Below are positions 24,545 through 58,364 of a stretch of DNA of 64,000 bases, in pieces (the stretch's first letter is position 1; each line of letters starts with the position of its first letter). The stretch spans positions 60,712 through 124,711 of the forward strand of contig SVIH01000005.1 in assembly GCA_015069575.1 (NCBI GenBank), read 5' to 3'. A model generated the notes under the pieces. It was given only the letters and a program-made list of their open reading frames with translations, searched no databases and was not told where the DNA came from. The translations under genes and the position numbers were made by a program. Origin of the DNA: Clostridiales bacterium. GTDB taxonomy: Bacteria > Bacillota > Clostridia > Christensenellales > QALW01.

Positions 24545-24700
24545 TGCAGAGTAGATGGTATGCGCTGAAGCAATACGCTTCTGAAGTGTTAAGGGATGGG
24601 AAGTTGCCTTTAAACGAATAACCCTATCGGGTTAGCGATATACTGTTGCATCCGCTGCAGGATGTATCACACTACTCTCCTAATTTAAAATAGGAGATTT
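24545..24700 (+). promoter_or_regulatory. Tetrahydrofolate (THF) riboswitch plus RBS-sequestering/terminator hairpin
   Basis: TGCAGAGTAGATGG...TTGCATCCGCTGCA core; CTCCTA...TAGGAG-T7 expression platform; upstream of folT-folC. Confidence 0.88.
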
Positions 24701-26507: not shown

Positions 26508-26515
26508 ATATTTGT

Positions 26516-26620
26516 TTCGGGGCAGGGCGCAATTCCCTGACCGGTGGTACAGTCCACGAGCCATTTTGGTTGATGCGGCGAAATTCCGCAACCGACGGTA
26601 TAGTCCGGATGATAGAAATA
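26516..26620 (+). promoter_or_regulatory. FMN riboswitch (RFN element)
   Basis: TCGGGGCAGGGCGCAATTCCCTGACCGGTGGTACAGTCCACGAGCC...GATGCGGCGAAATTCCGCAACCGACGGTATAGTCCGGATG. Confidence 0.97.
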
Positions 26621-26639
26621 ATATTTTATTGTTTCATAA

Positions 26640-37912: not shown

Positions 37913-38004
37913 ACCCACTTTGGCTTCAAATCCCCCTGTTACTACTGAACAACAAAAGACACCACATTTGTGATGTCTTTTATTATTGGCGGAGAAGGGG
38001 GGAT
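37913..38004. repeat. ~92-bp direct repeat, copy B (runs into intact tRNA-Ser)
   Basis: Near-identical to 37712..37804. Confidence 0.9.
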
Positions 38005-38078
38005 TTGAACCCCCGCACGGTAATTAGCCGCCTACTGGTGTTCGAAGCCAGACCCTTCAGCCTCTTGGGTACTTCTCC
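37987..38078 (-). tRNA. tRNA-Ser(CGA), CCA encoded
   Basis: GGAGAAG...CTTCTCC acceptor, long variable arm, TTCGAAC anticodon loop. Confidence 0.88.
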
Positions 38079-56545: not shown

Positions 56546-56619
56546 GGCGCTATAGCCAAGCGGTAAGGCATGGGCCTGCAAAGCCTCCATCCCCGGTTCG
56601 ATTCCGGGTGGCGCCTCCA
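56546..56619 (+). tRNA. tRNA-Cys(GCA)
   Basis: GGCGCTATAGCCAAGCGG...CTGCAAA...TGGCGCCTCCA. Confidence 0.95.
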
Positions 56620-56620
56620 G

Positions 56621-56656
56621 AAAGAAAGACACGATGAAAATCGTGTCTTTCTTTTT
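56621..56656 (+). terminator. Terminator of tRNA cluster
   Basis: AAAGAAAGACACGAT-gaaa-ATCGTGTCTTTCTTTTT. Confidence 0.9.
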
Positions 56657-56660
56657 GTGT

Positions 56661-56833
56661 TTGTGTCCATAGGACACAACATCGTTTGCGAGTTTACTCG
56701 CAACATCATTTGACCGATAGGTCAACATCATTGTCCGCTTGGGGACACAAAACGATGTTGCCTTACGGCAAACAGTGTTGTGCTTCGCACAAACGATGTG
56801 GGCTAACGCCCAACGATGTTGCACTTCGTGCAA
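56661..56833. repeat. Tandem hairpin array 1: eight stem-loops with variable stems and conserved CATCGT/ACGATG linkers in mirror-image halves
   Basis: Stems include TTGTGTCC/GGACACAA, TTGCGAG/CTCGCAA, TTGACC/GGTCAA, TTGCC/GGCAA, TTGTGC/GCACAA, TGGGC/GCCCA, TTGCAC/GTGCAA. Confidence 0.95.
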
Positions 56834-56847
56834 ATATATGGTATAAT
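56819..56847 (+). promoter_or_regulatory. Possible promoter of four-helix-bundle gene, overlapping last array hairpin
   Basis: TTGCAC-N17-TATAAT; the -35 matches consensus only at TTG. Confidence 0.4.
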
Positions 56848-56872
56848 CTGTGTTACATGAGAGGTGTTAGCA

Positions 56873-57229
56873 ATGAAAGAGGATAAACTTTCGGATTTAT
56901 CTATGCAATTATCGGTTGATGTTTTGAAATTAACAAAAGAACTCCGTGCAAAACACGAAACTGTGATTTCAAATCAAATTGGCAGAAGTGCAACAAGCGT
57001 TTGTGCTAATATTGCGGAAAGCAAATACGGTCATAGTCGTGCGGATTTCATTGCTAAACTTGAGATTGCATTAAAAGAAGCAAACGAAACTAGCAAATGG
57101 CTTGAAATGCTTTTTAAATCGGACTATATTGATGAAGCCACCTATAAATCTATTGATAAAACTTGCGCAACAATTCGCATATTATTGATTGCTTCGATTA
57201 AGACAGCTAAAAGCAAATTAAATAAATAA
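56873..57229 (+). CDS. Four-helix-bundle protein (S23 / 23S-IVS / Avd-like family)
   Basis: LTKELRAKHETVISNQIGRSATSVCANIAESKYGHSRADFIAKLEIALKEANETSKWLEML; RBS GAGAGG before ATG 56873. Confidence 0.9.
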   Translation: MKEDKLSDLSMQLSVDVLKLTKELRAKHETVISNQIGRSATSVCANIAESKYGHSRADFIAKLEIALKEANETSKWLEMLFKSDYIDEATYKSIDKTCATIRILLIASIKTAKSKLNK

Positions 57230-57246: not shown

Positions 57247-57603
57247 ATGAGAAAACTATTAATTTTGTTTTTTGTGCTTCTTTTAGCCCTATCTGTGTGT
57301 GGATGCGGCGCTTCAACAACAGAATCAGATATCGGTTCTACGCCATCGGGCCCTGCTTCATCAACGAATGAAACTTCTAAAATTACTGAAGAAGAGGCTC
57401 TTGAAATTGCGTCACAACATTGGGGCATTAAAAACGGCGATAAAGATGAAGTAACGGGCTTTCCTTTTTTTATTATGCCAGTCGAGAGTTCAAACGATAA
57501 TATTGCAATAGCGCTTAAATGGCTTGTAGACAATCACCATTACTCCACAGTTGATTCAATTGAAATCGACCCTTATACAGGAAATATTGTAAATAGAGAT
57601 TAA
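57247..57603 (+). CDS. Small lipoprotein
   Basis: LILFFVLLLALSVCGCG lipobox; begins 17 nt after the four-helix-bundle gene. Confidence 0.8.
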   Translation: MRKLLILFFVLLLALSVCGCGASTTESDIGSTPSGPASSTNETSKITEEEALEIASQHWGIKNGDKDEVTGFPFFIMPVESSNDNIAIALKWLVDNHHYSTVDSIEIDPYTGNIVNRD

Positions 57604-57660
57604 GAAAATCATGTTTTCAGACATATTTCATTTCGTGTCATTAAGTTCAAAACTCCCAAA

Positions 57661-57692
57661 AATAAAGCACTTGTTTCGACAAGTGCTTTATT
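57661..57692. terminator. Intrinsic terminator
   Basis: AATAAAGCACTTG-tttcga-CAAGTGCTTTATT, 13-bp perfect stem. Confidence 0.9.
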
Positions 57693-57697
57693 TTTAT

Positions 57698-57855
57698 CCA
57701 ATCCGAAGGATTGGTATGTAATCGCCGTTAGGCGTATGTTATCACGCGAAGCGTGTATGTCATCACCGCAGGTGTATTTTCTTTGGATTGATTACATACC
57801 ACCTGCGGTGGATTGCATTCCGACTTCGTCGGATTACATACAATGCGACCCATTG
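57698..57855. repeat. Tandem hairpin array 2: seven stem-loops with variable stems and TATGTNAT/ATTACATA linkers in mirror-image halves
   Basis: CCAATCC/GGATTGG, CGCC/GGCG, CACGC/GCGTG, CACC/GGTG, CCACC/GGTGG, CCGAC/GTCGG, CAATG/CATTG. Confidence 0.95.
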
Positions 57856-57902
57856 ATTTATCACCGCTTTTTTGCTATAAAAGCTAAAAGATAGGTGGTT
57901 TT

Positions 57903-58364
57903 ATGAAATCTTTATTAAAATATATAAATATAAAAACAACCCTTTATTCACTTGGATTTTCCTGTGCAAGTGCCTTAACCCTTTGCTCACTTTATAATCT
58001 TTTTGTGATTGTTATTGCAGATTTGTCAAGCGCTTATCCTGAATTTGCTTCTTTAATATATATTTACCGCGCACTTTTTATTGCAAGCATAATCGGTGCA
58101 GTTATCGGCTTAATTTTTGGCAACTATTTTCGCTGTTATTTACATGCGTTTAAAGAAGAAATCTTTTACAAAAAAAGGTTTGATTATAGACATTGGTTTC
58201 AGCCTTATTTGTTTTCCGTTTTTCCTTTTAGTATTATCGTTTCTTTCAGGGTTACTAACGTTATAAGTAAAAAGGCTCCTTTATGGGAGCTCTTTTTCAA
58301 TTTAACATTGCACAATCTTTCAGAATATGTTAGAATATTAATACTGCTTAAATACAAAATTTGA
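57903..58364 (+). CDS. Hypothetical integral membrane protein
   Basis: Several hydrophobic segments; RBS-like AGGTGG upstream. Confidence 0.65.
   Translation: MKSLLKYINIKTTLYSLGFSCASALTLCSLYNLFVIVIADLSSAYPEFASLIYIYRALFIASIIGAVIGLIFGNYFRCYLHAFKEEIFYKKRFDYRHWFQPYLFSVFPFSIIVSFRVTNVISKKAPLWELFFNLTLHNLSEYVRILILLKYKI

Follow-up and report, generated by a model that had tools for sequence, protein, structure and literature searches.

A mirrored hairpin array in a clostridial genome as the probable left end of a small element at tRNA 3' ends

The tRNA-Cys locus and its two hairpin arrays

The window analysed here is a whole stretch of 64,000 nucleotides from the 1.59-Mb genome of a Clostridiales bacterium, which we sampled in 20 stretches. 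Towards its right end lie, in order, tRNA-Cys, a terminator, array 1, a gene for a small four-helix-bundle (4HB) protein, a gene for a putative lipoprotein, another terminator and array 2. The features are as follows, all on the + strand.

56546..56619: tRNA-Cys (gca), called by ARAGORN; its CCA end is the left junction of element A
56620..56655: terminator hairpin, first unit of element A; its stem word GACACGAT also stands at tRNA-Thr (L012), tRNA-Cys (L015) and tRNA-Leu (L017)
56661..56834: array 1; stems TTG..CAA, linkers CATCGT/CATCAT (left) and ACGATG (right)
56819..56847: promoter; TTGCAC (within the last hairpin of array 1), 17 nt, TATAAT
56873..57229: 4HB protein (PF05635 / TIGR02436, '23S rRNA intervening sequence protein'; Pfam 5.5e-27, TIGR02436 1.2e-28)
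57247..57603: cargo gene for a putative lipoprotein with weak PepSY similarity (under the Pfam cut-off); other loci carry other genes there
57604..57658: conserved right-end segment ending ...GTTCAAAACTCCCA (also ...GTTCAAAnCTnCCCA)
57658..57695: terminator hairpin, apparently the first unit of array 2
57698..57855: array 2; linkers TATGTNAT (left) and ATTACATA/ATTGCATT (right)
57853..57881: promoter ending array 2; TTGATT at 57853, 17 nt, TATAAA at 57876
57903..58364: 153-aa membrane-like ORF with no family hit, occupying the expected start of a type-B 4HB gene

For the 4HB gene the ORF tool picks a GTG at 56864; the ribosome site stands before the ATG at 56873. Strong purifying selection acts on the protein (dN/dS about 0.05). 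The genome holds three PF05635 genes (on contig C5 at 62 kb and on contigs C11 and C21), and each of the three is preceded by a tRNA gene, a terminator and a hairpin array, in that order.

The original prediction placed seven stem-loops downstream of the lipoprotein terminator, and we find all seven there, each with a perfect stem (57698-57714, 57723-57734, 57743-57755, 57764-57774, 57799-57811, 57820-57832 and 57841-57855). The mirrored linkers that it described, and the loops that flip with the arm, are also present: the linkers read, in order, TATGTAAT, TATGTTAT and TATGTCAT on the left and ATTACATA, ATTGCATT and ATTACATA on the right, and at the centre the arm of the first hairpin, CAATCCGAAG, recurs inverted as CTTTGGATTG with one mismatch. 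What it had called the lipoprotein terminator appears to be the first unit of array 2, given that a related locus (L095) has this terminator frame, with the inner stem compensated, ahead of an array homologous to array 2.

A chance origin of the arrays can be rejected. The seven chained hairpins of array 2 (score 61) are equalled by none of 1000 dinucleotide shuffles (shuffle maximum 4), and the eight chained hairpins of array 1 are likewise matched by 0/1000 (shuffle maximum 3). The two arrays are the top hairpin chains in the 64-kb window, and compared with shuffles array 2 is strongly folded as single-stranded DNA on its two strands (z = -6.5 and -7.1). The earlier argument that two arrays with unrelated linkers, a common loop vocabulary and mirror symmetry are no coincidence holds in full, and it applies to about 80 loci of other genomes as well.

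Ordinary REP/BIME or MITE repeats would also provide short intergenic palindromes with a conserved spacer, and the ends of REP/BIME and IS200/IS605 elements resemble the arrays in their paired inverted palindromes and short loops. However, the stems here are variable and tied to the 4HB gene, the genome has no Y1 (RAYT/IS200) transposase (0 matches to PF01797), and the arrays are not dispersed, since all those found in 400 kb of the genome adjoin tRNA genes. Nor does array 2 behave as the single dispersed palindrome of a REP/BIME with a RAYT: a genome search recovered its linker as an array nowhere else, which excludes a dispersed repeat, and the loci hold 177 distinct stems. We therefore give this explanation hardly any credence. 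The several linker families anticipated for the genome were found, namely ACGATG, GTGATGC, ATTACATA and a truncated TATATCAT. In other parts of the genome, tRNA-Gln (L129) and tRNA-Val (L136) are followed by arrays that are solo or cut down.

Arrays, 4HB genes and tRNA genes in related genomes

A scan with the 4HB protein yielded 80 related loci, mostly in gut Clostridia assemblies; nearly all are metagenome assemblies, mostly fragments, and they are not independent of one another. Absence of similar arrays from related genomes had been named as the finding that would speak against the original prediction, and relatives do carry them: at least three chained hairpins lie within 350 nt upstream of the 4HB gene in 77 of the 81 loci with enough upstream sequence to be counted, versus 47 of 760 control windows. 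Sixty-three loci have a tRNA gene within reach, on the same strand in every one (63/63), with 23 anticodons represented; one locus lies behind 5S rRNA. The terminator stem starts 0-1 nt past the CCA in 48 of the 53 loci where this distance is measurable, so that the left junction is exact. Close terminators also follow sixteen terminal tRNA genes counted as array-free. Their stems, however, lack the words that array loci at different tRNA isotypes have in common, and for this reason we think that the terminator hairpin belongs to the element.

The association of arrays with the gene has a defined phylogenetic range. A 4HB match is present in 95 of 396 genomes of the sampled order, and the array-bearing genes form one supported clade, separate from the 4HB genes of a phylum-wide sample. 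In that sample, the genes outside the array clade have no arrays save one weak chain, and thus arrays are not needed by 4HB genes everywhere. Phage and plasmid records gave distant 4HB genes only, and no 4HB gene was found on viral contigs. One of these distant genes lies on a plasmid of a named Clostridia strain, Monoglobus pectinilyticus (NZ_OY725736.1; L207:3001-3351), between hsdS and hsdR of a type I restriction system.

Linker type follows the protein. With types assigned by motifs that we defined ourselves, the 4HB tree requires 21 changes of linker type versus 47.8 when types are shuffled, and on this mapping each linker family goes with one 4HB protein clade. Related genomes add linkers such as GTGATATT, GTTATATT, AATGATG, CATTATGTA and GTGAAAT, and some of the arrays concerned follow protein genes instead of tRNAs. 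In the type-1 and type-2 clades, then, tRNA ends are the principal target, but the wider group also has others.

Array 2 itself is, by homology, the leader of a second 4HB family. In a genome of the same family (G004), locus L095 shows tRNA-Pro, a terminator, an array, a promoter and a diverged 4HB gene, and its leader is 90% identical to array 2 over 142 nt comprising the terminator and left half; the right halves differ more. Searching with the L095 protein returned eleven further type-B genes that have upstream sequence and leaders of the array-2 type (L177-L182, L184-L188), eight of them directly at tRNA genes (Cys, Cys, Leu, Val, Gln, Ser, Arg and Ser). In the window the type-B 4HB gene is absent, and the unrelated 153-aa ORF starts at the place matching the beginning of the L095 gene. 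Furthermore, in six loci (L011, L014, L016, L017, L030 and L033) a type-1 element is followed, after its cargo, by a type-2 array, and therefore the tandem arrangement seen in the window is common.

Each array consists of two mirrored halves, and its stems change freely while pairing is kept. Among the 177 distinct stems, which draw on a recurring vocabulary, a unit's own arms pair fully in 73-89% of cases versus 5-9% when arms are swapped. Five pairs of stem words occur in both orders, which rejects a fixed order; stem modules seem to shuffle, although the pairs are few. The loops have a polarity. In the left half of type-1 arrays, 24 of 38 three-base loops are GNA and none (0) is TNC; in the right half, 101 of 147 are TNC and none (0) is GNA. 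GNA and GNNA loops closed by G-C pairs give exceptionally stable DNA mini-hairpins (PMC4686876), and with this distribution the two halves offer C(GNA)G hairpins on opposite strands, the left on the top strand and the right on the bottom strand.

Near-perfect stems despite such sequence variation could also arise if the hairpins had no function and template switching during replication corrected near-palindromes to perfect ones. Such correction leaves the conserved linkers, the mirrored halves and the GNA loop polarity to be accounted for, as well as the inverted copy of the first-hairpin arm at the array centre (at least 9 nt in 59 of 73 arrays; shuffled maximum 7) and the tie between arrays and one gene family. 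We regard it as very unlikely.

Evidence on whether the arrays act as DNA or RNA

Promoters resembling the one in front of the window's 4HB gene were found in 66 of 86 loci, versus 8 of 86 after shuffling, and the spacing to the -10 box is 17 nt in 60 of the 66. The last hairpin of the array overlaps the -35 box of this promoter. With a terminator on one side and a promoter on the other, the arrays probably remain untranscribed.

One alternative is that the array acts as RNA, either as a structured leader or as a small RNA, bound by the 4HB protein in the manner in which Avd is thought to bind the RNA of diversity-generating retroelements, and that it controls expression of the 4HB gene and cargo or serves as a template. 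PF05635 has been described as related to Avd (PMC10053308) and to 23S rRNA intervening sequences, the RNA fold is strong on both strands (z -4.4 and -5.7), and the genome has one reverse transcriptase beside a small helical ORF. However, transcription of the tRNA or of the 4HB gene should not cover an array that comes after the terminator and before the -10 box. Stem mismatches show no RNA-strand bias, with G-T (20) and A-C (15) about equally common and no excess of G-U, and no Rfam covariance model matches array 1 or array 2. The placement between terminator and promoter and the lack of a G-U excess therefore favour DNA, a reading with which antisense or read-through transcripts are compatible; a role as RNA seems unlikely to us. 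Elsewhere in the window, THF and FMN riboswitches lie at 24545-24659 and 26509-26624.

Contig C5 carries the single reverse transcriptase of the genome at 15.5 kb, and the nearest 4HB gene is about 46 kb away. At the reverse transcriptase locus (L206:558-2316) a 137-aa helical ORF lies upstream of the enzyme gene and other small ORFs lie around it; the locus is possibly a prophage diversity-generating retroelement.

The promoter overlap, the uniform 17-nt spacing and the conserved, clade-specific linkers could also be understood if the region were double-stranded control DNA, in which palindromes and linkers are operators through which the 4HB protein regulates its own promoter and the cargo. 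Yet operator palindromes should hold their sequence, and here the sequence changes while the symmetry stays, as the number of distinct stems and the pairing test indicate. The junction at the tRNA CCA and the occurrence of one unit at many tRNAs would also be left unexplained, and we judge an operator function of this kind improbable. The reading with the best support is a DNA element that is, or recently was, mobile and is recognised by way of a single-stranded end in folded form.

Boundaries, cargo and a proposed mechanism

The unit runs from the tRNA CCA end to the 4HB stop codon. We compared 51 pairs of loci at different tRNAs, selected because their 4HB genes are similar (82% or more); what is informative is therefore how the unit contrasts with its flanks. 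Median identity is 0.74 from CCA to ATG and 0.85 in the 4HB gene, versus 0.58 upstream, 0.61 in the tRNA and 0.61 downstream, with a shuffled background of 0.59. By this measure, loci at different tRNAs have only the array-4HB unit in common, and their flanks are at background. BLAST homology commonly stops 2-15 nt beyond the 4HB stop codon, and the first ORF after it, which often overlaps the stop as ATGA, varies among loci. Among 33 cargo proteins scanned, six belong to the GNAT family (Acetyltransf_1), and the others include NUDIX, AAA, DMP19, a sulphite-reductase-like protein, lipoproteins and unknowns.

The right boundary of the element is weakly defined. A 26-nt core of the right-end segment recurs with 0-5 mismatches in the window, L010, L011 and L021 (best control 7), which amounts to three independent cases because L010 and L011 are orthologous loci. 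No duplicate of the tRNA 3' end scored above background within the 4 kb searched to the right, and a classical tRNA att duplication was accordingly not found there. A tRNA-end-like sequence ending in CCA or ACA stands before some second arrays (L014, L096). The search for an empty site found none: G001 has a different 4HB element at the matching sigE-tRNA locus, and the sigE, ATP-grasp and deacetylase neighbours led in relatives to contig ends, to no orthologue or to loci without a tRNA.

Considering these observations together, we hold it reasonably probable that array 2 is the left end, or leader, of a small element that carries a PF05635 4HB gene as its hallmark and has folded single-stranded DNA at work. 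A unit comprises, in order, the tRNA CCA end (or a tRNA-end-like sequence), a terminator hairpin, two half-arrays in mirror image, whose variable-stem hairpins are set on family-specific linkers, a promoter, the 4HB gene and cargo. In the window, element A (array 1, the 4HB gene and the lipoprotein gene) lies between tRNA-Cys and element B, of which array 2 and its promoter are left and the 4HB gene is absent. We infer that the array acts as folded single-stranded DNA, in which unwinding would let the top strand of the left half and the bottom strand of the right half form C(GNA)G mini-hairpins. An oligomeric 4HB protein would recognise the linkers and hold the folded end. Joining that end to tRNA 3' ends would then fall to a recombinase or polymerase provided in trans, and the genes behind the 4HB gene would be exchanged as cargo. 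Anatomy and relocation are well supported. Binding of the array by the 4HB protein is suggested because linker and protein type are co-inherited and because the family is reported to be oligomeric (a homopentamer, as cited in PMC4990558), and the joining enzyme is likewise something that we infer. The unit contains no recombinase or reverse transcriptase, and a search of the genome for an integron integrase (TIGR02249) gave weak tyrosine-recombinase matches only (best 35.6 bits versus a cut-off of 265).

Several known systems share features with the element. Integron gene cassettes and their attC sites are alike in that structure rather than sequence is conserved, as the own-arm and swapped-arm pairing suggests for the arrays, in that folded single-stranded DNA is the likely substrate, and in their small, variable cargo (GNAT, NUDIX and lipoproteins). 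They differ from the 4HB element, which has many hairpins per site rather than one, a fixed 4HB gene, a location at tRNA ends, and no integron integrase above the cut-off in the genome. The 23S rRNA intervening sequences with an S23 (PF05635) gene, for example in Coxiella (PMC4990558), are stem-rich selfish inserts tied to stable-RNA genes and encode the same protein family, which is present in the array 1 element and in the homologues of array 2. In contrast, the 4HB element is located not in rRNA but behind tRNA genes, brings a terminator, an array and a promoter of its own, and is not one long stem cut by RNase III. Unlike diversity-generating retroelements, it has no reverse transcriptase, template or variable repeat beside the 4HB gene. 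Integrative elements that target tRNA genes likewise have a left junction exactly at the tRNA 3' end; the 4HB element departs from them in using many isotypes per 4HB clade and in having no integrase in the unit, and a tRNA-end duplicate was not found within 4 kb to the right. Group IIC introns are also placed downstream of terminators, but here the terminator appears to be part of the element, the unit has no intron-encoded protein, and no Rfam intron model matches the arrays.

No earlier description of such arrays, or of an element with a PF05635/TIGR02436/4HB gene, was found in the open-access literature, so a description elsewhere is possible. This is probably an undescribed, mobile element of gut Clostridia at tRNA 3' ends. 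We put forward more tentatively, as a possibility that we would not yet favour, that it represents a new class of mobile gene cassette, in which the PF05635 protein serves as a specificity factor that directs a folded single-stranded DNA array to tRNA 3' ends, with a recombinase or polymerase in trans and swappable cargo. PF05635 proteins occur in many bacteria and their function has not been known since they were named from 23S rRNA inserts (PMC4990558). If true, the cassette reading would give this 'S23' family a function. The loci assign to its members a defined DNA partner, tRNA 3' ends as a target and a role that can be tested, and they would add a family of cassette-carrying elements without a recognisable recombinase.

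Some further observations concern the sequences around tRNA ends. At L061:3700-4420, a segment of about 45 nt (GCGAAGTTCTTTTTGCAACG..GTTCCGCTG) stands as a direct repeat on either side of the 4HB element and is a possible insertion footprint. In four loci (L045:3455-3760, L048:3517-3750, L061:3324-3750 and L077:3497-3750) a segment with a terminator and an inverted tRNA-like T-arm lies between the tRNA gene and the 4HB element. In L045, L048 and L077 this segment ends with the tRNA 3' end in a second, direct copy (about 20-23 nt including the CCA), and in L061 with a shorter tRNA-end-like sequence. The 4HB element begins directly past this segment, which looks like another tRNA-end element. 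The Rfam Gut-1 RNA (RF01706) matches directly behind tRNA genes at L046:2709-2779 and L048:7911-7983 and may be the same as the inverted-tRNA element. In the window, tRNA-Ser at 37987-38078 (- strand) is followed by its terminator and then by a degenerate inverted piece resembling a tRNA 3' half. Finally, L018 and L020, of which one is binned as Lentisphaeria and the other as Clostridia, are 99.9% identical over 4.7 kb, and therefore at least one of the two assemblies is mis-binned.
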